A stretch of 64,000 nt of DNA from the NCBI RefSeq assembly GCF_008831285.2, contig NC_045144.1, forward strand, positions 17,933,716 to 17,997,715, in the 5' to 3' direction. Below are positions 22,901 to 57,864 of this stretch, piece after piece. The notes beneath the pieces were generated by a model, which was not told the DNA's origin, ran no database searches, and worked only from the letters and a program-made list of their open reading frames with translations. Position 1 is the stretch's first letter. The number at the start of each line of letters is the position of its first letter. The translations under genes were made by a program, and so were the position numbers. Origin of the DNA: Nymphaea colorata. Taxonomy: Eukaryota; Streptophyta; Magnoliopsida; Nymphaeales; Nymphaeaceae.

Positions 22901-24224
22901 GTACAGGCATTTGGATTTCTGATTTTCCGTTTGTTTGCAGGAACTCAAAGATGGGAGTGTGCTGCTGCGATTGGCACACCTATACGAGGTATCTTTTTGC
23001 CTCTTTTGGTTAGGTTTCATTTAGGCTGCTTGCCTGGAGAATGATTGGGAAAAGGTTTGTCACTCATTGATTAACATGCCTTGCCAGTAACTAGAGAAGT
23101 TCACACCGCTTCTTTCATCTGTTGTATTCTGTTTCAGTAATGGTTTTTAAGGGATGGAAATCAAAGTGAAGTATTCCTGTGATGTGTCTTTCCCATTGAC
23201 TTTTACTCTTGACATATATCTGTTAGCAACCACTGATCAATATATTACTACCTCACTGTTGAAGTGGTACTAGTAGCACCATATGGTTAGGTTGTGAATA
23301 AACAATGGGATCACGAGTGGATTTTTCTATCTCAAATTATATATATCATTTATGACTCTTGATTAGTTGGTCTGGTAATTCCATATTGTCATTTTACCGT
23401 TCTGAGTTTACTAAGACTTCCAATAATTTCTGAGATCCTTTAACTGACTATTGTTTCCTGCAGTCATGCTTTGCACAATCTTTCTACATCTGCACGTTTC
23501 TTGGCTTCTGAATTTTTCTGGTGTTATATTCCAGTTGAGCGAAGACAAGGATCTTTCTATGATGGCATCGGTTGACTTGCGAAAGCTCTTCAGTAATAAG
23601 AAGGTAAAAGCTTTGGCTTCAATTGGACTTGAAGCCCAATATTGTGATTGCATTTTTCAAGCGACCCTCAGTATCTGTTTAGGAAATTAGCATATAGCAC
23701 TTAAATTGCTGTGATTAACAAAGACCATTTTTACCTTTTACTTGACAAATCCAGATTGGTCTTTTGATGTGAATCCATGTAAAAGCATTAATTGCAGAAA
23801 AACACAGTACTTAATCGGTCAAAGCATCTCAATCTTCAGTACGGTATTATTAGTCTATGAGTATCAAGTATAGTTTTGTTGACCTTTCACATTTGTTCCA
23901 CATTTTATGACATTTGCTTGAGTCTTTTTCTTCTGTAAAATTGTAAGTGAATGCACAGGAAACAGAGGTCATAGAGATGGTGCTCTCTCTCTCTTTCTCT
24001 CTCACAACGGAATTTTCATGCATTTACAGATCAGCAAAATTTCAGAACTGAGCTTATCTGCCAATCAAGAGAGAGAAGCCATGGAGAGGAAGAGACTGGT
24101 GTGGAACGTAGAGGGCTCGCACAATGCTGAGGCTGTGGTGAGAGGAGGACCTGTGGACCCAATCAAGTTGGTGGTGGAGTTGGGTCCCATGGAGATCCGC
24201 ACCTTCATCCTGGTGTTCAATTGA
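5624..24224 (+). CDS. Lysosomal/vacuolar-type alpha-mannosidase, GH38 family (29 exons)
   Basis: It hydrolyses alpha-mannosyl residues of glycoproteins and glycans in the vacuole or apoplast; the closest relative I know is Arabidopsis At3g26720. Exons: 5624-5836, 6177-6260, 6488-6576, 6727-6901, 8057-8176, 8345-8431, 8498-8569, 10014-10127, 11120-11220, 11336-11429, 11524-11691, 11780-11869, 14239-14298, 14406-14462, 15155-15389, 15486-15616, 17185-17253, 17395-17454, 17547-17618, 17833-17880, 18008-18127, 19212-19277, 20307-20419, 20514-20598, 22319-22429, 22516-22608, 22941-22988, 23535-23603, 24030-24224. All phases agree and give 1012 aa, against about 1020 in the family. Residues 1-22 look like a signal peptide. 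HSHDDVGW (48-55) supplies zinc ligands H50/D52; [10 protein letters not shown] carries the nucleophile D172; QHHDAISGT (412-420) adds zinc-site H/D residues. Intron 2 uses a GC donor. Exon 17 could instead start at 17170 in the same frame, adding FPACK, but the family alignment favours 17185. No broken exon seen; likely functional. Confidence 0.95.
6261..6487 (+). other. GC-AG intron (intron 2 of the mannosidase gene)
   Basis: Exon 2 must end at GAACAG (6260), because the conserved protein runs [10 protein letters not shown], and the next bases are GCAATT; the acceptor is CTGCAG. No GT donor close by keeps both the frame and the conserved residues. GC-AG introns are a known minority class in plants. 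The intron also holds a 35-bp direct tandem duplication (6331-6400). Confidence 0.85.
6331..6400. repeat. 35-bp tandem duplication in an intron
   Basis: Two adjacent copies (6331-6365, 6366-6400) beginning GCAGCTGAATAAATGGCTAC; I see one mismatch between them. Confidence 0.9.
7038..7076. repeat. (TA)n microsatellite in intron 4 of the mannosidase gene
   Basis: A simple TA run about 39 bp long inside the 6902-8056 intron. Confidence 0.9.
8647..8688. repeat. 21-bp tandem duplication in an intron
   Basis: GCACTCCTGCCGTAATCTAA with one more base is repeated directly twice inside intron 7 of the mannosidase gene. Confidence 0.9.
10490..10560 (+). mobile_element. Possible tRNA-derived SINE fragment
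   Basis: GGGTTTGGGTTCAAATCC (about 10524-10541) looks like an RNA polymerase III B-box. The upstream GTCTTCATCAAGAGATCC is at a plausible A-box distance but matches poorly. No clear body or tail; it lies in intron 8 of the mannosidase gene. Confidence 0.3.
16873..16958. repeat. (TA)n microsatellite in intron 16 of the mannosidase gene
   Basis: Two long TA runs separated by a single GA interruption. Confidence 0.95.
19871..19904. repeat. Near-perfect palindrome (stem-loop) in an intron
   Basis: Arms CTGAGCTGGTCAAAG and CTTTGACCAGCTGAG flank a 4-5 base loop with one mismatch. The stem contains TCAAAG/CTTTGA words similar to those in the 31.65 kb hairpins. Confidence 0.7.
21731..21763. repeat. 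(GAA)n trinucleotide repeat
   Basis: About ten AGA/GAA units inside the large 20599-22318 intron of the mannosidase gene. Confidence 0.9.
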
Positions 24225-25359
24225 GAACTCACTATGCTTATGCCGTTTCCCCGCGCTCAAGAAACGTGATAAACTTCTCGTTCTGCATGCCTTCACCCAA
24301 TGCCCTATGCGTTTCGCTAGTAATCTAGGCAGCAATAAATTATCAGCAGCTTCTTTTGTTCTTTTCTATTCAGTTTCTGAATTTCAACTCTCATTTCATG
24401 CAATACAATCTTTACTAATCTTTCTCAATCTTCATGCTTTATTAATAAGTTTCCTTTCAATTGAACGCTTGTCATTCAAGATACCATGTGTGTCCACAGG
24501 AGTATGGTCGAGGACCGGTAAAATTATGGTGGGTGCTATTTCTCTGGACTACAAACAACGGTGCGCGATGCTTAGTTGATGGGTATCTCGTTCTCCACCC
24601 AAATCCCAAAATCACCATAGGATAAAAGTAAAGAGGACAAAATTTATGTTTTTTAGTGTATCTTCCATTCAGCATACCCATTCCATGTGTACATCAAGGA
24701 TGATTTTGGTGGTACTTCTATATTTTCGATCCAGTGACATCCCTGCCCATATGTGTTACTTATTGATATGGTTCTGGAAAAGGTTGACCCGACGCTAGAT
24801 CCAAACAAAATGAGGTTTAGTTTCAGTTAGATTGAATTTGTCTTTAATTCTGATACCAGAGTTTCAAAATTACTGGATCACGTGCCACTGGATCCGATCA
24901 AAATAACTAAAAATGCTGAAACTCGTTCAAAATCATTGTCGAGATATGGATCCGTTCATCATCCCCAACGAGCATCCAGCTAGCTTCAACCCATCTGACC
25001 CGGATCAAGATTTCTAGTCCGGATCCAATAATACCTGTCAAACCCGTCTTCTTAAACGCGTCCCAAGGCAACCGTCCATCTCAAGATGAGAGGCCATGGT
25101 TCCTCGCTCGCTTTTTGGGTCCCCACGAGGCCGTCCATCTTGAGATGAACGGCTGGCAATGACAAGAACGGGGGCCACGTTTTCTATATTTTCCAGCTGG
25201 AATTTGGAAAAAGAAGAAAAACAGGGAAAGCGGGATATTCCGCGCGGTGATGCCCGATAAATACCACCGCGCGGTCGCGGCGCCAATTTTTTCTTTTCCG
25301 TCTGAAGCGGCGGTTTGGCTGAAACGCTCGAACTCCCCACCGTTCCCCCAAAGAGTTTC
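24225..25359. other. 3' end of the mannosidase gene and promoter/leader of the RING gene
   Basis: AATAAA at 24334-24339 is a plausible poly(A) signal for the upstream gene. Two quasi-palindromic words, CCGTCCATCTCAAGATGAGA (near 25074) and CCGTCCATCTTGAGATGAAC (near 25133), lie about 60 bp apart before the RING gene. The last 150 bp are GC-rich, as expected of a plant promoter and 5' leader. No coding gene seen. Confidence 0.5.
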
Positions 25360-28300
25360 ATGTCCATCTTGCCTTCTGACGCCAAGGGATCCCCATCGTC
25401 TTCAGCAGATTCGCGCTCGGAAAACCCTAATTTCGACAATGGAGTTCTCCAAGCCCCTGAATTGTTCGGTCTTCACGGCCGCGGCGGTGGAGATCTTGGC
25501 GCCTATGGATCAGATCCTGTTGACACTTCTGACAGCCTCTCAGTCGTTAGCGCCGGTCAGTTTTCCCGATCTTGTTCATGGATAAGCCCTTTTTTTGCGT
25601 CTTTCCGTTTTCTTGATCTTGCGCCGGTATCTTTGCGGGTTAGGGTTTGAGTGTGCTACGTGCCCTCTTTTTGAGCAGGTCTCGTTTCTTGGGAACTATA
25701 GTGTAGTACGTGGGGGTTTACGTTGTGTACAAGTATTTGCGCCGATACATTTGGCGTCTTGTTTGTCTTCATTTTCTTTGGAAGGAATTCTGGGCCTGGT
25801 TGAAGTTTTGCTGTATGATTTTTTTCTTGTTGTTTCGGTTCCAGTGGGAGTGCAATGTAATGAGAACATTTCTTTGTCGCAGTTGTTTGATTTTGTTCAT
25901 GACGATTCATGAGCTTCTCGAAGGTGATTAGATTGTTCCACATTGATCTTGTGGTTTTTCACTCTGACTTCAAGGGATGCGCTTAGTGATGTTAATGGTG
26001 GTTCTGCCTGCCTTTCGGGAAAAGTGGGTTAAATATGGAAGAGATATTTCGTTCTTAAGTCATTACTGTGCAGTGTTAACAAATTATTAGGAGCAGGTGC
26101 CAATTCTATGTCAAGGCGTTCACAGATGCTTACTTTAACGGTTTAACCACATTTTTGAAACGAACAAGTCAATGTTTTCTGTTTCTTTTTGTTCTCAAAC
26201 TGTGAGTATTTCCGTCCTGTTGACCAGTTGCCGAATGATTGGTGGGTCTATCCCGTAGGGTACTCTGAGTCATTGCTTGGGCAAATTTCTGACGGGTTGA
26301 ACATGAATATGTCTATCAGGCAACAAGGAAAAAAAAGAATTACATGTCATCAAATACAGTAAATCTTTAATGCGAACATGTCTAGCTATGGCTGCCGTAA
26401 GATCCGTTTTGGTTTTGAACTTAAGCTTCATCTTCACTTTCTTGATTTAATGCTCAATAACATCAGATTTATGGAATATGCAGCTGAAAGATATTTGAGT
26501 TTCCATTTCATGCAACTATGTGAAAGAGAGGTCAGAACTTCTTGGAAGAAGCTCATGCTCAGTTGGACGAGTCAATTTTCCTTTTTTAAGTTCCATTCTT
26601 TCACATTCTCATCCAGATGATCCGAATTGCAATGAGCAACATATCTCAAAGAAAGTGGAGATGATGATAATCATAAATCAAGGTTTAATGGGTCCATAAA
26701 TTTTAACGAGGACACATAAAAGAAATCTACATTAGAGTGTAGCAAGATCACATCTATATCAGGTTTTTTTACTTTCTATCACTTTCCTTTAGCTTCTTAC
26801 TTCTTAGTACATCACTGTGAACTAACACAAAAATGCATTACAAGCATCACTTGGAATCAAGGGTATAGAGTAGAGCAATACAAAGGTAAGAAGTGATTCA
26901 AGTAAAGGCATCAACAGCCTTTTGGGATTAGGTATCAGTTCCATTCATTCAGCTCTGGTAACTAATCAACTGATGATGGGAAATCATGCCACAAAGCTAT
27001 GTCACATGGGTGCGGGTGTGGCAAGTTCCAAAAAAAAGGGTGCGGGTGCGGCAAGTTCCAAAAAAAGGGTGCGGCTGCAGCCAGAGCATATATATATATA
27101 TTATATATACATATATACATATATACATATATATGTTATTTGTTATATGAATAATTTTATTTATCAGTATTTTTAAACTTTGTTTTATTAAGGTTACCTT
27201 GAATTGATATATCAATGAAAACGCAGCCAAAACATTTTCAAAACCGCCAAAACTCATTTCTGCCGTGTCGGGCAGCACCCGCACTGATGTGGGTGTGGGT
27301 GCGCCACCATAGTTGGCGCATCTGTGTGACTTAGCCACAAAGAAATTTCTCAGCCCTGCTGGTGAAACAGCAATGTTTTTTGGTGGTGGCATAAAAATGG
27401 AAGATAGTTTTTGAATCTTAAATAATTTTTTAAGATGCAACTAATCATGCATGGATAATCCTGTGTGACTAGGTTCAATGTCATGTCACCTCTATCTTTT
27501 TTTTTGAGTATTTCAATCATGGTAGTGCACACGTCAATTCTTTTTATGCATAACAGCACGAACAAGTTGACAGTCCTGGATAGCAGATGCTTTTTTTCCA
27601 TGCTGTTAAGCTCAAAAACGGAAATTTGCTTACTGCTTTAATTGCATACACACATTCCGCTGTTTTTTTTTGGTTGTGTATTACTTTATGCTTCTGTTTA
27701 ATAGAGCAAGAGAGGGAATGGATAAGGGAGGGTGGAAGGTGAGGGAAAAGTAGAGGAGAAACCACTAGATCAGTACTGAAATATGTTACTGGTTCTTGTA
27801 TGGCTGTTTTCCTTTCCGAGAATGGCTTTTGGTCTGTAAGTATGGCCTTGTGGTTTACATGGGATGACAGCCTTGAAGGCTTGAACTTTAGGGCCAGGCA
27901 ACTAGCAGAGCCTGGTCCATCATAACTTGTGAAAAGTTTCAGTGGGGCAGGAGTTGATAAAAAAGGGGAGTATGAGTAGCAACATTGAACCATCTAGTTT
28001 TGTCAATGGTCACCCTTGTAATCTGATAAATTTAGTGGAGGTGCTTATTTGTAAATTGTAATACTTCATCTCGCTGTTTTGTCCATGTTTGGACTCACTT
28101 TTTGCTTTTTTTAACTGTACAGGTACAATTGCAGCACCTACAGCTAATTGCAGTGTGTCATCCAATAGAGTAAGTTGGCCTACTTCATCCTTTTCCTTTT
28201 TATTTAATTCATATAGTGCTGCTTTATATGTTAATGCTTTTGTTTTAAGTGTTTGTCTATTGCAACACGAAGTGCACTGCCCTCTTTTCTTTATGTTCTG

Positions 28301-31254
28301 CACTGTTTTTCTAAGTCATCTAGTTTTCTTAGGCAACCAATGGAAGAGGTCCAACCGTGAGGAAAAATTTTGGACAAAGCCATCATGTACCTTCAGGCTG
28401 CCGAACTTCTGAGCAGGGAGGGCTACCTTTCGAACCTAGGTCAGAACAGCTCAGTGGAAAACAAATTGCAACTGGTAGCTTACATAGTAATCCTGTACAT
28501 CAATCAGCAAGGAAAAGCCAGATGATGAATGCCAATCATTTGCTGAATTTTCATTATGATCCCATATCTCGCCCTCAACCAAGGGCCTTACCCCCAAAGA
28601 GGCAGCAAAAGGTAAAACCTTACAACAAGGACCTGTTCCTTCAGGCAAACTACAAATTTGTCATACTAGATGCCGATGATCGCATAATTGAGTCAATGGA
28701 TCCAGATAAAATGTTAGAGTGGGAGGATATTATCTGTGTAAGGTATTCTTCTCCAAATCCTGTACAGTGCCCTATTTGCCTGGAGACACCTCTCTGTCCA
28801 CAAATAACTTCATGCGGACATATTTTTTGTTTCCCATGTATTTTGCGCTATCTGTTGATGGGTGAGGAGGATCATAAAGGTGACTGCTGGAAGAAGTGCC
28901 CACTTTGTTTCACTATGGTGTCAGTTAAAGATTTATACACTATTTATATTGATTATGTTAAAAAGTATAATGTTGGAGATCGCATGGATTTTACCCTTCT
29001 TACCCGAGCAAAAGATTCAATGGTTCCACTTGAGAAAAATTCTAATGTGTTTAATGATGGCAATGGTGGTTCTTTCTGTGACACCTTCTCAAAGCTCACT
29101 GTGACATCAGATGTTGAATTGTCAGTTCGGGAAGCTAAGCTTGAACTTAATGATTGGTTAGCTAAAGCAGAGGTTGGAAAAGTTGAGGACCTAGAGCTGT
29201 TACCATATGTTTGTGCAGCTCTAGAACAACTAGACCAGAGGAAGAAATTGTGGACCGAGCATCAGGTTTTCAGCAGCAGTCCAAAAAATGCTGCAGTTTA
29301 CCATGTTAACAGTAAGCCTTGTAAATACACCCCAGTCAAGAATCTGTCTCATGCTACAAAAGTGAAAAGCATGCATGAGAACAGATCCTCTCATACTTTG
29401 TATATTAATCATGAACCTTGTAGTAGTGAATTAGATCCTCCGACAATGGTGAAGGAAGTTGAAGAAAAAGGTCCTCATCACGTAAACTATCGATGGGAGC
29501 AGTTTGAAATGTCAGAAAAAGTGTTTGCCTTAGATGAGGATGACAAAGGCCTCCAGAAGCAATCTGGTGATGGGAGTAACACACAAGAGAAAGACTATTA
29601 CACCTTTTACCAGGTATTTGAAATTTTTTCCAAATTTCTTTAGATAAGTTTGTCAAGATTTTGCATGCTTGATAAGTTTGCCTTTTTATGCGATGATTTG
29701 TCAAAGTTCAGTAGTGCACAAACAAAATGCTCTTATATGCTTTGTCTACCTAGTCCTCTTGTTACTCCTTCCATCACGTTCCCCTTTTTGAGATTCAAGC
29801 TGGAGTTCAGCCCAGAATCTTACCAAGCTCAAGACACTCATTTCAATGGGGCAATTGTGACTAGCCTGTAGTCATGTTTAACCTACTAATGGTGAACTAA
29901 TCTGCACAAGCATTAAGACTTCAAAATATCATTTGTTTTCCATATTGAGCAGCAAATGCTGGAGTTCAGCCCAGAATCTTACCAAGCTCAAGACACTCAT
30001 TTCAATGGGGCAATTGTGACTAGCCTGTAGTCGTGTTTAACCTACTAATGGTGAACTAATCTGCACAAGCATTAAGACTTCAAAATATCATTTGTTTTCC
30101 ATATTGAGCAGCAAATGCTATTGATTAAAATACATATGGTGACAGTTGCATTTAAACGCTTTTAGACATGCACATACTATTTGATGGGGTTTTATTTTTC
30201 AGTTATGTTCCAACAGTGAACTTTTTTACCAGATAATGCTGGGTCTCTTAGTGATGACATATTATTCTTAAATTTTTGTGCTTGATTTGATATTTGGCCT
30301 CTTCCATTTTTAGATAGGAGTATCGTTTGTAACTTTCTGTGTTTATTTGTTTAGCTTAGGTTCACGACAAATAGGTGATGCTTATACCATACGTTGTTTG
30401 TATGTTAGTGTACTTTGACATGATTGCACATGGATATTGGATGCACACAGTGGTAAAACCCAAGGGTGCAATCAACATCAAATGGACAACCAAATATATC
30501 AGCAATATCAATTATCAAGTGTCCATGTTTGACGAAATCTGAATATCAAATCTTTTCTCCATAATTTTTTCATATGTATCATCTTCTTTGCAGCTTCTAT
30601 GAGTTCCTATTCAAGCCGACCATGTTCCTGTGAACTATCCAATGTATCTCTGAAAATTACAAGGATGATCTTTGCCTTTGTATTCAATTGTTGCTTGTGT
30701 CTCATATTAGTCTCTGACTTTTTTTTTTTAATGTATCTTGCAGTCTGTTGATGGTCAACTTCTTATTCTTCATCCCCTAAATATGAAGTGTCTTCTTCGC
30801 CATTATGGCAGCCATGATTTGCTTCCCCCCAGGTTCGCATCCAGTCCATGTGGAAGATTAACAAGTAGCTGATTAAATCTTAGATCATGACTTAATAGTA
30901 TTAAAATCTTTTAGATTATGACTTTCACTTTTTTGTTTGTTTGTTTGTTTGTACTTTGTATCATGCTCCATGGTTAAGTTTAGCAGGTAGCTACATCAGT
31001 CTATGCATTTTAAATTATTAATAGATTGTCCGAAGGACATGGTTCAGTTTGATTAAAATGACTGTCAATAGTGTCATGTTTGAGTAAGCATCAGATGGGA
31101 ACATGAGTGATTCTAAATTTGTATGTGTCATGTGAAAAACCTTTTGACTTCTAGTTTTGGGGGAAGAAAGTGTGTTGCCGCCTATGTCACATAGGTACGG
31201 GTACGGACCATTTTCAAAAAATTTGGGTGCAGGGGTGCGGCCGTACACACACGC

Positions 31255-31286
<32 letters not shown>

Positions 31287-32594
31287 CTATATATATATGT
31301 CAAAAAATTTCAAAATGAATAACATATTCATAAATCATTATCCAAATTCCAAAACACAGTGTGGAAGTAATTAACATACAAATACATCAGCTTTCTTGAT
31401 TCTCCGTCGCATCATCAAGATTAGAAGGAGCAACAGGTCACGCTTTTAAGATATATTGACATCGCTATGGTTATGGCTCACACTATTATCGAAGAGTCAA
31501 GTTATAGAGAAGGGATTGATTTTCAAAACATTGTATGGAAGATTTTAAATGAAAAGTTGTGAGGAACTATGTACAAGAAAGGTTTAGAGTGAAAAAGGAA
31601 ACAGGAAAAGAGGGGGGGATTTTTAATGTTCAACTCAAAAACTGGACAACTTTGGACTCGGTCAAAGTTGACCGAGTCCTAAAATGGACAAAAATGATTC
31701 CAGCCTTCCAGGTACGTTGACCGTACCTGGTGCTGCGTTGACTGCACCTTTGCCGTACCCAGGGCCGTACTCCTCCTTAAGAGGAGTACCCGTGTGACAT
31801 AGGTTGCTGATGTATTGGCCAATATGAATAAAATAAGGATGAAAAATAATTTGTAATTTTAAATTTTTAAAATAAGTCGTGTGACTGATCTGGCTCAGAT
31901 GCATATCAACAATATGCATATGATTTTGTACAATTCAATCCAACATTTACAATGTTGTGGCTGCTTAACATACACTGTCTAATGCCTGATATGCAACCAT
32001 TTTTTGCTGCTAAAAAAAATCACCAATTATAAATTCATGATCTTCTACTCATGTCTTTTTTTTTTTTTAAATATCCATTAAAAGAGAGATATTTCCAACG
32101 GTAAGATATATTTCAAATAGTCTACTTTTGTTGCAGTGTGTTTGTTTCACATGCATTGTATGCTATGCATTTTATAGAAATATACTGTTGAACCATGATG
32201 CTGTAAGATGTTGCCTTTTTCCAGTATAATGAAATTAAAATTGAAATTGCTGCAGAATTGGTGGTGAGATTTTGCAATTGGAAACAGTAACTCAGTCAGA
32301 AGCCGTGAGGAAGCGTTATCGTTTCTTAAGTCATTTTTCCTTGACTACTACCTTTCAGGTTGCTTATTTATTATTATACGTTCTTTTTTCACTCGGTAAT
32401 TGCTTTGCCTGATCTGTCTTTTCAATGCAGCTTTGTGAAATAGATATGAGTGGTATCTTGCCTCCTGAAGCACTATCTCCTTTCATGGATGAAATAAAAA
32501 GGCGTGAATATCAGCGAAAGCGTCGTGTCAAGCAGGTGTGCAGGAACTTCGTAGTAGCAAAAATTTTGACTAACAAATATATATATATGTGTGT

Positions 32595-32626
<32 letters not shown>

Positions 32627-33808
32627 ATGAAACTCTATACATGCATTTGTTATGGTCCATTCTGTAAGCATAAATACTTATAAATTAAATTATATAGATA
32701 TATTTGTATGGTTGCCTCTCTGAAAAATAGATAAGGTAGAATCGATTTCAGTACTTTTATCGAGGGCTCCTGGAGCAGTGTAGCAAGTAAATATGAGGGC
32801 CATGATCACTGAATATATGTTATCTGATTGTGATATGTAAAGTAACTTAAAGAGTTACCTTACCCTTTGTAGCTTGTGTAATCATATGAATCAGATGGCA
32901 ACAATGGTGCTTGTAAATGACTAGGCATATACACATGGAATCTTTATTACAGCTACCATGCACACGAGAGACGCCTTCCTTACTGTTACAGTGAATTAGA
33001 AATTCTAATGTCTTTGCCCCTCTCATTTTCAGGAGTCTGAAGAGAAGGCCAGGGGCATGGCTGTAGAAGCTGCCGCTTCCATCTATACAAGACCTGTAAA
33101 TTCTTCAAGTACAACATTCTCAGAAAATGATTTTCAGGGTGAGTGCACTTTTCTTATCGTTTTCCTGATTTTATTGAAAGGACCTTTACGGCAATTTATA
33201 AAATCTTTGTTTTATTATCATATAGAACATTAGACTGATCCGATGCATTGACTGATCAGCTCTAGGAACCTCTCCTGCTTCATCCACGAGTCCTCCAGTT
33301 GGTGACAGGAAGCTCTTCTCAGACGTAACTCGTCTTGGCTTTGCCGCTGCATGCGATTCTCCTTCTTTAAGAACTGAGCAATCGGTTGAGGCTTCTGCCA
33401 CAGCATCGGGTGAAGCTTCTTGCCAAAGCTGTAAGTGAGACCTTGTCCTTTATGACGCATCACATGTATTCACAGTGGCCAAGCTAGTAGTCACAGTATT
33501 TGTCTGCATCCTCACGCATGTGCTTTCCGCACACATCTGCACTTTGCACAGCTGCAGCTGTGATAGCTTTTTTCTCTAATGGCTTAGCCAAGCAAGTTTT
33601 CTGCTGGTTATGTTGGATCGTTCCTCAGTTCTGTTCATGCCTCTTGATTGCAGGCCCAAGAAGTGCAACTGCCTTGTCATTTGCCAGCATCATGTCCGCA
33701 GCCAGAACTCCAGACCAGGCCGAGGTCGTAAAGATGAATGGCCTTGGGAAAAAAGGCAAGAAAGCAAGCAGAGTACTGTTGTCGACCGCTGGTGGACGTC
33801 GCTATTAA
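25360..33808 (+). CDS. RNF10-type C3HC4 RING finger protein (9 exons)
   Basis: Probable E3 ubiquitin ligase of the RNF10 family; the plant relative I recall is At3g26730. Exons: 25360-25555, 28123-28169, 28333-29613, 30744-30832, 32256-32358, 32431-32535, 33033-33138, 33266-33430, 33654-33808. All phases agree, giving 748 aa, close to the plant family length. I chose the start MSILPSDAKG because plant relatives begin this way; an in-frame upstream ATG at 25315 would add 15 residues. The RING spans about residues 227-273: CPICLE, CGHIFCFPC and CPLC supply a C3HC4 zinc-ligand set. After the RING, the sequence FLSHFSLTTTFQ, a basic RRVKQ stretch and a Lys-rich tail (GKKGKKASR) are RNF10-like. 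Exon 3 alone encodes 427 residues including the whole RING. The substrate in plants is unknown to me. Introns 1 and 4 carry transposons. I see no defect in the gene. Confidence 0.93.
26997..27334. mobile_element. hAT-like MITE with perfect 8-bp target duplication (in RING gene intron 1)
   Basis: A 338-bp element starting CTATGTCACATGGGTGCGGG and ending so that its reverse complement starts CTAAGTCACACAGATGCG. It is flanked by CCACAAAG on both sides (26989-26996 and 27335-27342). Subterminal GGTGCGG repeats, an internal TA tract and no coding capacity mark it as non-autonomous. An 8-bp duplication fits the hAT superfamily. Confidence 0.85.
29800..30117. repeat. 159-bp tandem duplication in RING gene intron 3
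   Basis: Two head-to-tail copies (29800-29958 and 29959-30117) starting CTGGAGTTCAGCCCAGAATC. I find one clear difference (GTAGTCATG versus GTAGTCGTG), so the duplication is recent. Confidence 0.95.
31182..31802. mobile_element. hAT-like element, same family as 26997-27334 (in RING gene intron 4)
   Basis: A 621-bp element. The left end is CTATGTCACATAGGTACGGG; the reverse complement of the right end is CTATGTCACACGGGTACTCC. The flanks GTTGCCGC (31174-31181) and GTTGCTGA (31803-31810) agree at 6 of 8 bases, an aged 8-bp duplication. It has an internal TA tract and three strong hairpins near its right end, and no transposase reading frame. It is longer and less GC-rich inside than its sister in intron 1. 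Confidence 0.82.
31654..31789. repeat. Three consecutive perfect hairpins with TTGAC (W-box-like) words
   Basis: Stem 1: GGACTCGGTCAA / TTGACCGAGTCC (31654-31665 and 31668-31679). Stem 2: CCAGGTACG / CGTACCTGG around a TTGAC loop (31708-31730). Stem 3: GTACTCCTC / GAGGAGTAC (31767-31789). TTGAC(C/T) cores lie at 31660 (reverse), 31668, 31717 and 31738. They are probably subterminal structure of the surrounding hAT-like element. Confidence 0.85.
32578..32627. repeat. (TA)n(TG)n compound microsatellite in RING gene intron 6
   Basis: A short TA run passes into a run of about 18 TG units with two CG interruptions. Confidence 0.9.
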
Positions 33809-34694
33809 GCTTTCCCAGTCTGACATCCATAAACGTGAGATAAGTACATCATGCGCTTGGATATGATATTATGAGGCACTTGTAAAGAAATTGTCGCATA
33901 GAGACTGAGGATTGATCACATGTGCTTCGCGTGGATGTATCTTTTCTCCTACTTTGTCTGTAAACCCGGGGCCATTTATCTCCATGAAGTCAACGGGTTC
34001 TCCCTCTGGTTTTGTTTATTGGATTCCAAGTTCAAATATGGATGCGGTTCTTGTACTTAGCCTTCGGCCCTGAGTGATTTAGTCAAACAGCAATGCTGTT
34101 CATCTTTTGGGTGATTAGGATCTATGCGTTGCCTCCCAGATTGTTTGTAATCTTGGTCTATGAATGAATGCTTATGGTCGAATAACTTGAGTTATTGCCG
34201 GTAGGATGAGCTGCCAAGTCTATAGTTTTTGCTTTGCCGATACGACCAAGAATTTTCTTTCTCGATTGCGGAGAGGTTCCGTTCGTACCGTCTTTGGATT
34301 ACATGAGAACGGATCGATGGTAAGGCTTTTCAACCTCCCAGCCTATCCAGTGGCGGACCCAGTAAAGTAAAATGATGGAGCACTTGAAAATTGATAGAGA
34401 GACATTTATGAATAAACCAAACAAATAATCGGAGGCAAACCAATATGTAAACAATGAATTTTGTGGGCAGGTCCAAGTTTAATTTGCTCATCATGATAAT
34501 GTGACGTTGGTCTAATAACGGTTTACTACAGCAAATTCATCTTTAGTTGAGATGTATTGAACAATCATCTCATTTTTTGGCAAATCTTTTCTCGAATAAA
34601 ATGTGAGTTCCTATGTGTTTGCACCGTTGATGATAATCTGTAATATGCTTCAAGTATCTATAGTATTGGATGATCTCAATAAATTGTCAAATAT
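33809..34694. other. 3' flank of the RING gene
   Basis: Presumed 3' UTR and downstream spacer. GTGGCGGACCCAGTAAAG near 34352 may be the edge of another eroded repeat. I see no coding gene. Confidence 0.5.
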
Positions 34695-35868
34695 CTGGTG
34701 AAAGGTGTAATAGTCTTTTTCTTGTTTCCATTCCATCACCAGATTGCTTCCGGAGGCGTTCGTCATGCAGTCGATAGCTTAAGTGATGAGGACTTTTTTC
34801 ATCAACTTCCTTCACCACTACAAGCTTAATGATTAACAAAAGTCTGAGAGGATCTGTTCTCATGCATGCTTTTCACTTTTGTAGCATGAGAGATTCTTGG
34901 CTGGGGTGTATTTACAAGCTTAGTGTTTACATGGTAAGCTGCAGCATTTTTCGGACCGCTGCTAAAAACCTGATGCTCGGTCCATAATTTCTTCCTCTGG
35001 TCTAGCTGTTCTAGAGCTGCACAAACATATGGTGGCAGCTCTAGGTCCTCAACTTTTCCAACCTCTGCTTTAGCTAACCAATCATTAAGTTCAAGCTTAG
35101 TTTCCCGAACTGACAATTCAACATCTTATGTCACAGTGAGCTTTGAGAAGGTGTCACAGAAAGAACCACCATTGCCATTATTAAACGCATTAGAATTTTT
35201 CTCAAATGGAACCGTTGAATCTTTTGCTCGGGTAAGAAGGGCAAAATCCATGTGATCTCCAACATGATACTTTTTAACGTAATCAATATAAATCGTGTAT
35301 AGATCTTTAACTGACACCATGGTGAAACAAAGTGGGCACTTCTTCCAGCAGTCACCTTTATGATGCCCCTCACCCATCAACAGGTAGCGCAAAATACATG
35401 AGAAACAAAGATATGTCCGCATGAAGTTATTTGTGGACAGAGAGGTGTCTCCAAGCAAACAGAGCACTGTACAGGATTTGGAGAAGAATACCATACACAG
35501 ATAACATGCTCCTGCTCTAACATTTTATCTGGATCCATTGATGCAATTGTGCAATCATTGGCATTTAGTATGACAAATTTGTAGTTTGCCTGAAGGAACA
35601 GGTTCTTATTGTAAGGTTTTATCTTTTGCTGCCTCCTTGGGGGTAAGGCCCTTGGTTAAGGGCGAGATATGGGATCATGATGAAAATTCAGCAATTGATT
35701 TTCATTCATCATCTGGCTTTTTCTTGTTGATTGATGTACAGAATTACTATGTAAGCTACCAGTTGCAATTTGTTTCTAATTTGTTGCTCAGAAGTTCGGC
35801 AGCCTGAAGGTGTGTGATCGTTTCTATCCAAAATTTTTCCTCACAGTTGGACCTCTTCCACTGGTTGC
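34695..35868 (-). pseudogene. Inverted, broken copy of RING gene exon 3
   Basis: The minus strand matches exon 3 of the RING gene (28333-29613) almost end to end. It begins at the exon's first bases (GCAACC, here 35868-35863) and ends at its last CAG (34697-34695), with only some 15 bases of possible intron similarity beyond. Roughly nine bases in ten agree where I compared by eye. Lesions: about 40 bases lost near the 5' end, one base lost inside the RING after CGHIF (about 35408-35412), TCA to TAA giving a stop at 35126-35128, and about 50 bases lost near 34772. The second RING cysteine pair keeps its spacing, but CPIC has become CSVC. No other exon of the gene is present, so it cannot encode the whole protein. 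A relic, possibly still transcribed; it points toward its parent and lies under 1 kb from the parent's stop codon. Confidence 0.92.
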
Positions 35869-35929: not shown

Positions 35930-36247
35930 CAAAGGTAACTTTTTCCTTTTATTGTCTTGTGTTAGGGCAGGAACATATGACCTTTCCGCAGCCAACGACT
36001 CACCCACCATTCGGGTGAGTGAGAGGGTCAATCCTATCACCCGAAGCAAAGCACGAAGCACCTCCATTTGCCTTGCCTCCGAGGTCCTGAGCTAGGTTGG
36101 TGTCAGTGATAGAACGAGACACCCTTCAACTTGGATGTCAAGTCCCACCACCTTAAAACACAAGAGCATAGCGCCCACAGAAATTGAACTAGAGACCTGC
36201 CTTATACAAGCCTCTAGTCCGACCAGCTACGCTATGTCCCTTGAGGC
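35930..36247 (-). mobile_element. tRNA-derived SINE
   Basis: Read on the minus strand, it opens with a tRNA-like head: the A-box-like TAGCGTAGCTGGT (36234-36222) and, at normal spacing, the B-box-like AGTTCAATTTC (near 36190-36180). A body of about 250 bp follows toward lower coordinates and ends in an A-rich stretch near 35930-35950. The acceptor-like start GGGACATAGCG is at about 36240. No coding capacity is expected. It lies in the same orientation as, and immediately upstream of, the broken RING exon copy. Confidence 0.65.
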
Positions 36248-38395
36248 AACTCAACCACCATTCACCAATCAGATGGTTAATTTGAGTTGGACTTTGTTTC
36301 GGATTCGGCATAGATACTTTGAATCTGACTTTGTATCCAAGAGATGTAAGACCCAAGTTTTTATGCCCAGCTATATCTGAATCAAGACTCAGACTTCAAT
36401 ACAAATACCTGATTCATAAACTGAATCCAAGTCACATTGTATTTCTGATATTTTTTTCTTTTCAGCTCCAACTAAACTGGTTCAGTTCCAAGTAAACAGT
36501 CGGATATCACCAATCTATTTACATCATAATGAACATCTTGGTTAGCCATTGTTAGTAAATGGAAACTCATTGCGGAAAATCAATCATTAAGTAAGCGGGA
36601 TATCATTCCAAGACATCAAAAGCAAGAAAAGTATCCTAGGAGCTCGTTTGTGGAAACATTAACACATTGTCCCATGAATCTGCTTCTAAAAAATAGAATT
36701 ATAACAGTGTTTTATTAATCTGTCCTTTTTTTTTTAAGGGTGAGTTCATATTCTTATTAGAATGTTACCGTTGCCAAAGAGCCTCTAAGAGAACAAAGAG
36801 TTTGGTGCCAAATATATACTAGTATCCTGCTTAGCCAGATAATTACAGGTAAAAAGATAATTACAGGTAAAAGGCGGTGTCTAATCAAAAGTTTCCGAAA
36901 AAGGGAAGACAGTACAGGAACCGGCGAGCACCAATGAAGCTACCACTCTCTTTTCACAGCAGGCTGCCTTCCCACCGTTCACGTTAGTTAGTTCATTGAA
37001 ACGTCCTCTCCTTTGAGGTGTCGCTCTGTTGTTCATATAACTATGACTTGCAACATTCCCAATAAGATGGATTCCTTGGTGCTTTTTCATTGTACAATCT
37101 GCAGTACTGGAGGTGCCATTGTCTCGTCGAAATAGTCACTCGGTTGGTTGCATTTGGAAGACAAGTCCGCCTGTCAGTTTATGCAGATTTCACAATCTGC
37201 TACGTCGACACGTCCTTATGAAGGTATTTCAAGGTTTCCACCGTCTGTCTGACTGATCAATGGACACCAATCATGGGCTTTCATTCTTTGGATTTCGCCA
37301 TTAATCTGCACTCGAAAGTTATTAGTTATATTGAGTCGTTGTGAACCAACAATTTTAGCTTCTTTTAACTAAGAATAAACATTTTTCAGCGTCTGTAAAT
37401 CTGCACATTAGTGTTTATATTTGTTGGTATACATACATACATTCTTATAGTGTGTGGATACATAAATATACATAATGTGTGCACTGGTATGGGCAATTGC
37501 CAAACAAATAACATTATTTATATATTGATATCTTTGCATCAGACATTTTGTTGTGAGAGGCTGGAGGATTTTGGTGTCCAAGTCTATATATATATATATA
37601 TATAACATGTGTGTCTGTTAAATCCACGGTCTTACACTAATACTCATATTTCTTATTACAACAAAAGGTTGTGTTTTAGTTAGTATGATAGAGGATTCTT
37701 TTCTTTGAAAATGCAATAGATTTCAAATACTCACAGTAGATTGTTTTCTTGCCTTTATGTTTGATTTACTTTGGTTTGGGCTACAGATTAATTAATATGA
37801 TTTGTCGATGGATTCTTCCCACTGGTTGTTGGTAGAAAATGCTAAATGAGTTAGCAATGAAAAGCAAATCGCAATAGATATGAGTCCAAATAAGACCTTC
37901 CAGCATAAAATCCAAATCCAAATCCAAGTTGCGGCAGTGGAAAATCCATAAATGCAGATTTTTTTATATAATTTTACATTTTTAAGGGGTACATGTATGT
38001 GATTAAGAAAATTCACTGCGGCGTTTTGATATGAAAATAAACGCTTTTTGTAGATCTGCATGGGCAATCGCAATGTTTTGGTTGGATGGGATTAAATATA
38101 TTTCTAGATTCAGATCCGATATCAAGTGAGCATCCCTACCCATCTCAAAATTCAACCATCTGTTCAACAGAAGTTCATATTCAAAATCAGGCCCTGCGAT
38201 TATGACTGGTTACGTTTTAAAGGTTCATTAGGGGCGGACTGTGTATCAACCGGATTGGATTCTGAGTTTCATCTAGACAGATCCAAATCGACTATGAATC
38301 AACTCTAGAGAAGCTAGTGGCCAACATCTCTAACTAAGCAGATTTCATATATGGGCTGTTTGAGTTAAAATAAGGTCATGCACAACCTTGGCCTA

Positions 38396-39883: not shown

Positions 39884-41289
39884 ATGCTCAGATTTGCGGT
39901 CAGGTAAAGGACCATCTTCCCTTGTGGTGTGGTGAAAAGTGGGATAATCTGGGATGTTCTGTTATCTGCCGCATAGAAGGATGCAACATCTTAGTATCTC
40001 GATTTTCCTGGATAAATAAACATCCGACTACTCTCTCTCGTTTTGAAAAAAATCTCTGCTCCCATTGATTTTCATGCAGCAGCCGATCTCTCAGAAGCTT
40101 GAAAGAGATCAAGGCCTCGAGCTCATCGGAGAATCGCTTCAGATTCGTATCGACGGATGCACGGAAGTAAGTTGGTCGCCACTATAGCTCTCATGCTCTC
40201 TCCACATTTGCCTTTTTTCTTTTCAAACCGGATGCTATTCAATGACTCGGTTTCCACGATGAATTCCTTTCCTGCTTGTCGACTCGGATGGTTCATGGTA
40301 CAACCACCCTGACGCCTTGAGACGGCGATCCAGACTGACGCTTTTAATCGATATGCACACCTTGCTGAACCGGGCACGGCGATTCCCTAGCAGCTCTGAT
40401 GTTGTTTATCCGGAACCGTAGTTCAGTAGGAAGGGAACCGGCCAATCATTTTCGATTCGTATCGTAATTGAACCGTTTCCGGCTGATGCAGGTTGGAGGG
40501 GAAGGTGGCGCTGATAACCGGCGGCGCGAGCGGCATCGGCGCGGCGACGGCGGAGGAGTTCGTTCGGCACGGCGCTCGCGTCGTGCTCGCTGACACGCAG
40601 GTCGAGCTCGGGGAGCGCACGGCGGCCCGCCTCGGCCCCAGCGCGGCGTTCGTCGCCTGCGACGTGGTGGACGAGCGGCAGGTGTCGGACGCCGTCGACT
40701 TCGCGGTGGCGGAGCACGGGAAGCTGGACGTGGTCTACAATAACGCGGGGGTCGCGGGCTCGACCGTCCCCAGCAGCATCGCGGAGCTGGACCTCGGGGA
40801 GTTCGACCGAGTCATGGCTGTCAACCTGCGCGGCGCCGTCGCGGGGATCAAGCACGCCGCTCGGGTGATGGTGCCGCGCGGCTCCGGCAGCGTCGTATGC
40901 ACGGCGAGCGTCAGTGGGCTCATGGGCGGGCTCGGCCCCCACGCCTACACCGTGTCGAAGTTCGCCATCCCGGGCTGGTGAAGTCGGCGGCGAGCGAGCT
41001 CGGGCGCCACGGCGTGCGCGTGAACTGCGTGTCGCCCTTCGTGGTGGCGACGCCGCTCGTGGTCCGGCAGTTCGGGGCGTTGTACCCGGGCATCGACGCC
41101 GAGCGGCTGACGGAGATGGCCGCCAAGCTGGGGGAGCTTGGCGGAGGGGCCCGGTGCGAGGAGAGGGACGTGGCGAGGGCGGTGCTCTACCTCGCCTCCG
41201 ACGACGCCAAGTACGTGAGCGGCCACAACCTCGTCGTCGACGGCGGCTTCACCTGCACCAAACGCCTCTCCCTTCCTCCGTCCCTGTAA
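39884..41289 (+). CDS. Short-chain dehydrogenase/reductase, with an apparent 1-base frameshift
   Basis: A classical SDR, an NAD(H)-dependent alcohol dehydrogenase type like At3g26760/At3g26770; substrate unknown. Proposed exons: 39884-39903, 40080-40166, 40492-41289, with GT-AG introns and consistent phases. The two small exons give an Arg/Ser-rich start (MLRFAVSSRSLRSLK) that could be a mitochondrial or plastid targeting peptide. Exon 3 carries TGGASGIG (residues 45-52), Asp70 after beta-2 (suggesting NAD), NNAG (119-122), Ser175, and YTVSK (Y188, K192). After SKFAIPG the frame breaks: one base is missing at about 40974/40975, giving W-stop. The next frame resumes at once with LVKSAASELGRHGVRVNC and runs in register to the stop at 41289, ending GHNLVVDGGF as expected. 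Full length would be about 300 aa. It is either a recent pseudogene, or a sequencing or assembly slip in GC-rich DNA. The first two exons are my inference from splice signals. Confidence 0.8.
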
Positions 41290-46516: not shown

Positions 46517-49500
46517 CTACATGGCGCCATGAAAGCCTGCTGAGTGCAGAAGCACTGCTTTTATCTCTTCGGGAAGAACATCGGGTCCCTCTTTGCATTG
46601 CTGAAACAAGACACGGACAGAACAGCTTTTTAAGTTTTAACCAGATGTCGTTGAAGGTGATAGCATTACAGAAAAGTAGATGGGAGACCAAGTGAACTCA
46701 CCTCGGCACGGAAAACATCCAAGGCGAAACCGTTGAAACAGCTAATTACTGCCTGTTGAATATCAAGCCCAAGTCCGTCCAGTGCCCTCATGGCAGATAG
46801 CAACAGGCCTGGTCTTCTTGCACAAAACATATGGATATTGACAGCCCTTCCTTCTCTAACCCTCACCTCCACCTGCAACAAGAAATGAAAGCGGCCTGTG
46901 AGGACTGCAGGATGGAGCCAGTCAAGCAGAACATGATAGTTCACATGGCTGTCTGTTCAGGTCAGTTTCCATTCACTAGAGGACACGGATCAGTATTGGC
47001 TGCACATTATAGTTCATGATTATTCATGGTCATGAGCTGGATCTATAGTTACAGACAATGTAGCTATCCTTGCCAACATATGGAAAGTACGTTCGAAAAA
47101 TATCATGACACTGTTCTCATGGTCCCAATTTAGTACAACCAACTTGACATTGCATGTTTTTCACTCAAACAAGGCCAACAAGTAGTCCATCTGTATCCAT
47201 CTTTTAGAAATGAAAAATAGAGAAACTAGGACGGTAAATCGGCAGTCATTTTAAGGTTCTTTGGATAGGCAGGAAAAACTTCATAAATTTTCAGATCATC
47301 ACACAAGTACGAACCAAAAGATGAGCATGAAAGTGTAAATGTCGTGACAGATTTTAGGACCAACAAATAATAAATATAGCTACAACATGGCAAAAAACTT
47401 ACTCTCGCTGGTTGGCTGTTTGGGCTTGGCAATGAACTTGGACAGAGTTCCTCCTTCACCCGGCATGGCAATGTTGGTGGTGTGGGCGTCAGAGGGTGGA
47501 AACTTGGTGTAGTAGGGACAGAAGAACTAGGAGTCGACTCAAGCTCATTGTGAAGATCGTTGATCCTCTGAAGAAGCTCCTTCAGGTACTCTATTGCATC
47601 ACCAAGGATTGAAGCTCTGTCCATCTGATGTGCCAAAATGGTTAAAAGATAAGAAAAAAAGAAAAAATTAGTGTGTCCTGTCTACCTGCCAAGATATTGC
47701 AAAAGAAATAACTGGCCATGTAAGAATGTTGCATTATCAGTAGAAAACTGACGTCTCTTATGGTACATAATCATTTTCTCCTAGATTTCCCAACTATATG
47801 GTTCCAATTCCAAATACAATATAAGGAAATTGTTTAAAAGCACAGATAACATGAGCTGCACTAGAGGAGGAGCAACAGAAATGATAAGCAAAATGGACCA
47901 AGCCATGTCATCCTACATACCGACTAGCAGAGACAAAAGGCCTAAATTGACTATCAGGGAATGAATACAAGAAGATCACACTAACTTCCAATTATTAGCA
48001 GGAATGAAAGCATAAAAGGGCGAATATAAAGGCAGACGAAGACATACAAAAGAAGGGAAAGAAAATGAACAGTCAATGATCAAAATTAAGTTCGATCCCT
48101 GCATTATGGTTGCCGGTTTGACCAGAGATAGCCCATACAATAGAAAGCAAAACTGAATCTACATTAGAAACAACTAGTAATCATTTGGGCGACTCTAAAT
48201 GCATGCTGGAGGGCTGGTTTTAGCATCAAGACTATTTCCAAAAGCGACTTTCTGACACTAAGACATGTCCAGGCGCAATCCAGTTTGTTTAAAATTTTAA
48301 ATGGTACACAGACATGTATGAGGATAATGTCATACAATCCCATGAATTGCAAGTGGAAAGAAGAAACTCTCCTAAGGTGGTAGCGGGCAAAAAGCCTAAG
48401 ACAAAAACTTGCTCACAACGCATGCTTACAGTCCGAGTAATATCATCAATTGAAAGAGAAAAGGTGAAAAAGGAATAAATCAAGAAAAGTGGAGTTTCTA
48501 ACAGCAGTTATCCGTGCATTCTGAATACAATTTTATCAAAACCAAGACTAAAACTTTCGATTCATCGCAGAGTCAAGTTGCTAGACAACAAAATTAAACT
48601 CAGGTTCAAGAGTTATTTCATGGAGTACAAGAAGCCCGAAGACAACGTGAAAACGTAAAAATTGTGTCACCTTCCAAAACTACTTTTTTAATCCTAATCG
48701 CAATTAGTAAGATACAGAAAAGATCAGAGTCTCCAACTAAAAAAATACTTCGGATCAGTCCACTGACTAGACGTTAACAGCACTAGGTCCCGCATAAATC
48801 TCTAGCAGGAGTCATACTTCACTTGACATGTCGGGATAGAGCAACTACGGCTTTGTTGGTTCTTAAATAGATGTCTACAGTAAATTAATTTAGACGCTTT
48901 TGAATATACAATCATTTCAATAATGCAACCACAAGCTGGACCAAGATCAAAAGCGCAATATTAAAACCATAAACAGGAGAGGAATAGGAAAAAGATAGAA
49001 GACCAACTTTGCTGATGTTGGGGACTACAGATCTGAGCATGTAGAGCCGATCATTAAGCTTCTTCCTCCTCCTCCTCTCAGCCATCAAGTTCTTAGCCGG
49101 CAAGCCCTTCCTTTTCCCCTTCTGCTCTCCACCATCGCCGGCCAGCGCACCCGAATTCAAATTGCTTCCACATCGAGCCATGGCAGCCGCCCCTAACCCT
49201 TCCCCTCCGGTCTCCGCGGTCATAGTCTCCTCCGGCTTGTTATCCGCCACTTCATCGGAATCATACTGGAGCGCTGACCCATCCATGCTCGTCTCATCCA
49301 CCAGATCATCATCGATCTTCCTCCTATCCTCCTCCCCACCTCGTCTCCCCGCGTCAGCGACCGCTAAGGCTGGAGCAGCGCCACCACCCACAACTGAATT
49401 TTGCCGAAGTGCGGCCCTCTTCTGAAACAGAGTCGGCTGAGCTCCGACAGGAGGGAAAATCTCGAGTGGCCTCAAAACCTTAGGCCGGTTCAGGAACACC

Positions 49501-50162
49501 CCGCTGTTAATGCACCCATCCAAGCTGAAATTCAAGGAGCCGAAGCTTGGATTCTCGCAGAGCGGCGGAATCCGGCCGAGTTGGCCGCCGGACCCGAAAT
49601 TGGAAGTGCCCATCTGGGTGTGTGAACTCAGGACGCCGAAGCCACTTCCAGGAACCATAGAACCATGGTGGTCACTCGCATTGGTACTAGGTCCGGGGCT
49701 CGGATTAGCGTTAGGGCTCTCCTGCAAAGAGGCCAACAGCCCAGCGTCGCTCCCCAAATCGAGCCCCGCGTCGAACGGGTTAGAGCAGATGGCGCCGAGG
49801 AGGGAGGAGAGGCACGGCTTCTGGGGAAGGAAGGGCGGGATTGGCGAGGGGTCGAGGGCGAAGACGGAGGAGGAAGGGGAGCAGGAGGAGGAAGAATCAA
49901 CGGGGTGGAAGAGGAGGGCGTCATCCGGCGGATTCGAAGGGGCGAAGCCGGCGAGCTCTTTCATCCCTTCATGGTGGTGTTGGGTGGTGGTGGCGATGCT
50001 TTGGACGTACCAGTCGTCGTCGAGCATGGACCTGAAAGAAGAAGATGATGGGTGTCCACCGAGTTCGTCCTTGCTCCCCATTGCTCCCCTCGTCCACGAG
50101 ACACCATCATCTTCCTCGCCCTCTTCCTCCATCCACCCCACCCCATTCATCCTCGACAGCAT
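46517..50162 (-). CDS. ICE1: ICE1/SCREAM-type bHLH transcription factor (4 exons)
   Basis: A MYC-like bHLH factor. In Arabidopsis, ICE1/SCRM activates CBF cold-response genes and pairs with SPCH, MUTE and FAMA in stomatal development. Exons on the minus strand: 50162-49008, 47624-47403, 46872-46702, 46600-46517; all junctions are in phase and give 543 aa (about 494 in Arabidopsis). The start [14 protein letters not shown] matches other plant ICE1 proteins; the frame stays open upstream but has no ATG. The basic-HLH region runs about residues 350-410: [19 protein letters not shown], then helix 2 in exon 2 beginning [29 protein letters not shown] (in exon 1) is a conserved ICE motif. Exons 3-4 encode the ACT-like C-terminal domain, from [17 protein letters not shown] to the end GFHGAM. 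The N-terminal half is Ser/Pro-rich and GC-rich. Exon 1 ends at a GTTGGT donor, weaker than usual. The 5' leader is CT-rich. I see nothing broken. Confidence 0.95.
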
Positions 50163-50193
50163 TCCAGCTCTAAATCTACTCAGAGAGAGGGAA

Positions 50194-50224
<31 letters not shown>

Positions 50225-50330
50225 TCCAACGACGGCGAACTGAACGAGGAAGGAGGACGGACTGTAAAGAGTTTATCCTTCTGAGTTTTACAGCATAAAT
50301 TTTACTGAAGGCCCCTCCCACTTACTGTAA
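50163..50330 (-). promoter_or_regulatory. 5' leader of the ICE1 gene with a (CT)n tract
   Basis: Read on the minus strand, the 120 bases before the start contain a CTCTCT run (plus-strand GA run, about 50197-50222), typical of plant 5' leaders near a core promoter. No upstream ATG in the main frame within this interval. Confidence 0.5.
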
Positions 50331-57320: not shown

Positions 57321-57403
57321 CTCTTCTATATATATATATATATATATATATAGTGAGTGAAAAGTGACATGATTAAAAAAAAAACAAGAATAAAAATGTG
57401 TAC

Positions 57404-57794
57404 TAATTTTATATGATGAAAATTATGATAATTTTTTGCTTTGTTTTTCATTCAACTGTTCTATCATAATAGATCAGATGGCCTTTATGATTATGTTGAG
57501 TGACTTTGAGTAAACTAGAGTATATATATGTGTATGTATATATTATATATATTAATTTTACATGACAAAAATTCTAGTAGTTTTTTGCTTTGTTTTTCTT
57601 TTAACTGTCTTATCATAATAGATAAAATGACCTTTATGAGTGTGTTGAGTGGCTTTGGGTAGTTAGAGTCTATCTATATATATATAGTGATTTTATATGA
57701 TAAAATTTTGGTAAGTTTTTGCTTTGTATTTGTTTTAACTGTCATGGTAAATCAGATGACTTTATGAATGTGTTGAGTGACTTTGAGTAGCCAA

Positions 57795-57800
<6 letters not shown>
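57404..57800. repeat. Three degenerate tandem copies of a roughly 140-bp unit
   Basis: Each copy contains a TTTTATATGATAAAA-like start, TTTTTTGCTTTGTTTTT, AACTGTC/TTC...CATAATAGAT, ATGACCTTTATGA and TGTTGAGTGACTTTGAGTA, and ends in a TA tract. Copies begin near 57404, 57555 and 57690. Related single copies occur at 3755-3828 and 62290-62460. Confidence 0.75.

Positions 57801-57864
<64 letters not shown>

Follow-up and report, generated by a model that had tools for sequence, protein, structure and literature searches.

A broken, inverted copy of one exon of a RING-finger gene lies on the minus strand about 5 kb downstream of its 1.3-kb source, which comprises exon 3 and the adjoining 16 nt of intron 3 (Table 1). 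The analysis covered a stretch of 64,000 nucleotides of Nymphaea colorata DNA, termed the window in the following; in our judgement, its genes are in keeping with a plant. The locus is real and represents a further example of the known class of non-processed pseudogene fragments. We consider it likely that the copy is a partial, DNA-derived pseudogene fragment generated by repair-linked synthesis, with a 5′ edge that fell on the splice acceptor by coincidence and, by default, with no function.

Table 1 Features of the RING-finger gene, its inverted exon copy and the surrounding region (positions in the window).
Feature	Position	Strand	Details
Parent RING-finger gene	25360..33808	+	Nine coding exons, 750 aa; exon model made by hand
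Parent exons 1–5	25360-25555, 28123-28169, 28333-29613, 30744-30832, 32256-32358	+	
Parent exons 6–9	32431-32535, 33033-33138, 33260-33430, 33654-33808	+	
Exon 3, source of the copy	28333..29613	+	Length 1281 nt; phase 0-0; encodes the RING domain
First 16 nt of intron 3, also in the copy	29614..29629	+	12/16 matching, ungapped
Spacer, parent stop codon to copy	33809..34677	+	869 nt; a read-through transcript would cross it
Inverted, broken copy of exon 3 and about 16 nt of intron 3	34678..35868	-	BLASTN, global alignment
SINE-like insertion	36013-36248	-	15-nt direct repeats, 14/15 matching; 35998-36263 with repeats
Neighbouring gene, lysosomal alpha-mannosidase-like domain (PF21260)	15119-15643	+	Pfam
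Neighbouring gene, short-chain dehydrogenase (PF00106)	40487-40981	+	Pfam
Neighbouring gene, helix-loop-helix protein (PF00010)	48912-50321	-	Pfam

In the hand-made exon model of the parent gene all eight introns show GT-AG borders and the reading frame is open throughout. Pfam placed the RING domain (PF00097) at residues 227–273 of the protein with an E value of 3e-06, above the family cut-off, and exon 3 is the largest exon of the gene. The protein presumably resembles the animal RNF10 family. Intron 3 contains a tandem duplication (29799–30119) consisting of two copies, whose starts are 159 nt apart and which are 99.4% identical over 162 nt. By eye, related-looking stretches around gtcacatgggtgcgg and gtcacataggtacgg were seen in two of the introns (27001–27330 and 31180–31800), perhaps members of one family of small transposons. 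At a larger distance, a diverged tandem repeat occupies 57401–57830, in which stretches offset by about 149 and 284 nt resemble each other at 77–80%. No Rfam family matched the window at its gathering threshold.

Self-BLASTN of the window aligned 28332–29629 of the plus strand with 35869–34678 of the minus strand (E 0.0; 84.9% identity when gaps are included), and this pair had the highest score among the repeats listed. In the global alignment 1096 of 1189 gap-free columns were identical (92.2%), interrupted by 10 indels. Eight of these are gaps on the side of the copy (34, 1, 1, 2, 3, 23, 42 and 2 nt), the other two being gaps of 1 nt each on the side of the parent. Read in the frame of the parent, the copy contains 5 in-frame stops among 385 gap-free codons and is thus broken; none of its three reading-frame pieces matched a Pfam family at E 0.01. 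By alignment, a chance likeness of exon 3 and the copy is excluded, and the originally predicted diverged and broken version of the exon on the minus strand is confirmed.

We compared all nine exons, intron 2, intron 3 from 29630 onwards and 1 kb of upstream sequence with the window by BLASTN, and exon 3 alone found a strong second place, in agreement with the prediction that no other exon had been copied. The remaining matches of gene parts were six at E values of 0.056–0.096 and the tandem repeat within intron 3. The flanks of the copy gave two matches of 21–22 nt to the region 23500–34600 (E 0.024 and 0.027). Neither exon 2 nor exon 4 was found beside the copy by anchored matches or by alignments evaluated against shuffled sequences, the start of exon 4 agreeing with the copy flank at 6 of 16 anchored bases. 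A tblastn piece that seemed to extend into exon 4 (residues 452–540 on 34821–34579, 29% identity) was rejected as a sign of that exon, as 195 of 1000 shuffles scored as well. For wider flank alignments on the 5′ side, the scores were reached by 11 of 200 and 30 of 200 shuffles. On the far 3′ flank a match of about 16–22 nt, located about 890 nt into intron 3 and about 300 nt from the copy edge, was equalled by 2 of 200 shuffles only, but it is not collinear with the gene and was left as chance. The shuffles in the flank and exon-4/intron-3 tests were of two-base blocks and were not exact dinucleotide shuffles.

The two edges of the copy differ in character. Its 5′ edge falls within 1 base of the exon 3 splice acceptor, and past this edge the match ceases, with intron 2 agreeing at 4 of 8 and 4 of 16 bases and exon 2 at 4 of 16. 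On the opposite side the match runs on for about 16 nt into intron 3, as anticipated by the prediction of an offset of about 15 bases at one edge. Elsewhere in the window, 0 of 6157 GT-start control sites reached as good an ungapped agreement as that listed in Table 1, and 42 of 122688 did so when sites were admitted whatever their first bases. With the compared stretch set to 8, 12, 17 and 20 nt, the corresponding GT-start controls numbered 3, 7, 0 and 3 of about 6160. Allowing one 1-nt gap, 14 of 15 aligned bases matched. When the complete 195-nt 3′ flank was aligned locally with the start of intron 3, the score was not significant (135 of 1000 shuffles reached it), and the assignment of the intron bases therefore rests on the match anchored at the exon edge. 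Thus, the description of the copy as precisely exon 3 holds at the 5′ edge and is too strong at the other, where intron sequence is included. Likewise, the original start at 34695 marks the end of exon 3, with the copy going on to 34678. Both edges were as close to exon edges in 3 of 300000 random segments, in 2 of 9800 at a fixed length of 1297, and a single edge within one base is expected by chance at 0.58%, all of these figures being post hoc, as the case was chosen for that feature. Such closeness is unusual and counts against a purely random breakpoint origin.

The substitutions gave no sign of selection on the copy, 23 of 91 in-frame changes being synonymous (25%) at an unselected expectation of 27.6% ± 4.5%. 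A diverged paralogue as the source is unlikely, because the synonymous excess that it predicts is absent. With the NG86 method, exon 3 and the copy yielded a dN of 0.074 and a dS of 0.099, corresponding to a ratio of 0.76. In gap-free codons 22 of 87 changes were synonymous, which is low (p 0.0016) against an equal-rate expectation of about 41%, calculated by hand with parent silent sites changing at the rate of the copy and an assumed parent dN/dS of 0.1. Because of this shortfall, it seems that the silent sites of the parent changed less than expected or that the copy changed faster. Mismatches are unevenly spread along the alignment (p 0.013, 17 windows), where the first two and last three windows show identities of 0.83–0.90 and the middle twelve 0.875–0.975.

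We infer that the copy arose during repair of a DNA break, by templated synthesis or by template switching; its 5′ breakpoint would then coincide with the splice acceptor fortuitously, and the copy would now be decaying, by default without function. The approximately 16 nt of intron 3 point to a template consisting of DNA or unspliced RNA. As a partial segment disabled by stops and indels and made up of one exon and intron bases, the copy has the features of a non-processed pseudogene fragment. For grasses, gene fragments are described as filler DNA at repaired double-strand breaks (PMC3445842), and our locus resembles them in that part of a gene was copied and no transposon ends were found. 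Here, however, just 5 kb separate donor and target, which are oppositely oriented, and the repair mechanism is a proposed one. The exact 5′ edge also suggested an origin from spliced mRNA or a circular exon, which was dropped, as the copy includes about 16 nt of intron 3. A template of RNA in the wider sense, whether a pre-mRNA that had lost intron 2 and still kept intron 3 or a circular exon, reverse-transcribed and inserted in either case, would account for the exactness of this edge, yet we regard it as very improbable. The intron bases, at the 3′ end, rule against an exact circular exon, and the copy follows the exon collinearly from 28333 to 29613, without any permuted order, at variance with a circRNA-derived pseudogene. 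Signs of a processed pseudogene were likewise absent: exons 2 and 4 are not joined to the copy, no A run follows its 3′ end, and no flanking duplication was detected, the 41-nt edge windows sharing at most 6 nt (ATCTGG). This short edge repeat was ignored, because, when 41-nt windows are paired at random, 8.5% of the pairs have even a 7-mer in common.

Carriage of the gene fragment by a transposon, be it a Pack-MULE, a Helitron or another element, appears quite improbable as well. Helitrons are characterized by a 5′ TC and by a 3′ hairpin plus CTRR, whereas the signature of Pack-MULEs and related elements consists of terminal inverted repeats with a target duplication; the latter was not found around the copy in a search that weaker or shorter ends could escape. 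The neighbourhood does take insertions, as indicated by the SINE-like insertion about 145 nt from the copy. This insertion, however, is flanked by 15-nt repeats of its own and stops short of the copy; its tRNA-like boxes were judged by eye from known motifs. Short exact repeats bracket the copy as well, one direct of 9 nt (34571/35889) and one inverted of 10 nt (34652/36319), but both are, in our judgement, of the length expected by chance. No bracketing pair, direct or inverted, was present at E 1e-5 among the 21 matches listed by self-BLASTN of the window. Among five inverted pairs of at least 14 nt in the region 33.8–37.5 kb, a single one (I4) encloses the copy, with one arm falling within the SINE-like insertion. 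We thus retain repair-linked synthesis from a DNA template as the preferred origin.

The copy is convergent with the parent gene and starts 869 nt past its stop codon. A plus-strand transcript running from the parent into the copy would fold into a long, imperfect hairpin that Dicer-like enzymes could cut, and the copy is in this respect a putative source of small RNAs directed at parent sequence. We modelled such a read-through RNA with exons 3–9 spliced and the transcript extended to 35869 (4071 nt). The modelled RNA showed an MFE of −2405.6 kcal/mol, compared with −1123.8 kcal/mol for a control with the copy flipped, and 1117 of its 1656 pairs connected exon and copy, whereas the flipped control had 11 such pairs. 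This pairing is in exact register, from 28333–35868 to 29613–34695. Exon 3 and the copy share 14 perfect runs of at least 21 nt, the longest of 65 nt, and 95.5% of the gap-free positions can pair when G-U is counted. On paper, the data corroborate the predicted folding of sense exon 3 and antisense copy into a duplex of roughly 1.2 kb; given the perfect runs, divergence is not too high for pairing, an outcome that had been named as evidence against the proposal. The stem exceeds 100 bp, and the loop, calculated by hand, amounts to 1615 nt in the spliced read-through RNA and 5081 nt in the genome.

A working hairpin siRNA locus, whose duplex would be diced into small RNAs damping the parent or methylating the locus, is rather unlikely. 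The duplex might arise from read-through of the parent into the copy or from an antisense transcript starting beyond the copy. Orientation, spacing and the modelled pairing energetics argue for such a locus, but AATAAA hexamers precede the copy in the spacer (at 34411 and at 34595) and another sits on the copy edge itself (34678); AATAAA is weakly diagnostic as a signal in plants. No selection for pairing was apparent either, since G-U-keeping changes were not significantly favoured (40 vs 26 transitions, two-sided p 0.11). A precedent exists in rice, where a pseudogene survey attributes siRNAs both to gene–pseudogene pairs and to hairpins formed by neighbouring inverted pseudogenes and counts 38 gene–pseudogene antisense siRNA cases and 2 hairpin-forming adjacent inverted pseudogene pairs (PMC2708354). 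In the same survey, however, 53.4% of the pseudogene antisense siRNAs were 24 nt long and most were not nat-siRNA-like, and no small RNAs came from the parent of the inverted pair that it illustrates (PMC2708354). The siRNA-locus idea would fit the present locus by folding geometry only. Exceedingly improbable, in our view, is the combination of a young self-tuning hairpin arm, acting via rare read-through dsRNA, with an RNA-templated origin from partly spliced pre-mRNA that is marked by the acceptor edge.

Two further systems are instructive for comparison. The rice Lgc1 locus is reportedly a tail-to-tail inverted repeat of glutelin genes that is silenced through read-through and a demonstrated dominant silencer. 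Tail-to-tail inverted copies are common to Lgc1 and our locus, and read-through would give dsRNA here as well; in contrast to the dominant silencer, the present locus consists of a broken exon copy with no phenotype. Allen et al. are said to have put forward the inverted duplication model of plant miRNA origin in 2004. In this model, part of a target gene is duplicated in inverted, convergent orientation, and a foldback results (PMC3237417); the arrangement is found here as well, although our locus would represent at most a first stage.

A close likeness exists to the rice pseudogenes. One annotation contains 11956 non-transposon pseudogenes, with 6214 fragments forming the largest class (PMC2708354), and our copy is similar to these fragments in being a broken partial gene copy oriented to pair with the parent mRNA. 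The rice inverted pseudogene pairs have stems of 154–185 nt and were selected for a stem >100 bp and a loop <2 kb (PMC2708354). Here, the parent itself forms the other arm, the stem measures about 1.2 kb, and the genomic gap is 5.1 kb, compared with the 2 kb within which rice pairs were searched. The rice set also includes small RNA data (PMC2708354), whereas the evidence for the water lily locus is its sequence. A topic literature search, carried out without the species name, found no published account of this particular locus.

For the interpretation of similar loci, a note of caution follows: exon-sized edges alone do not show retroposition, and in the present case 16 intron bases argue against it. 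Should the locus yield no small RNAs, the copy simply adds to the decaying gene fragments. Should it yield them, it would constitute a 1.2-kb early-stage case, with a divergence of about 8%, in which a gene acquires an inverted-repeat silencer of its own, and one could date here the steps that lead from duplication to an siRNA locus.
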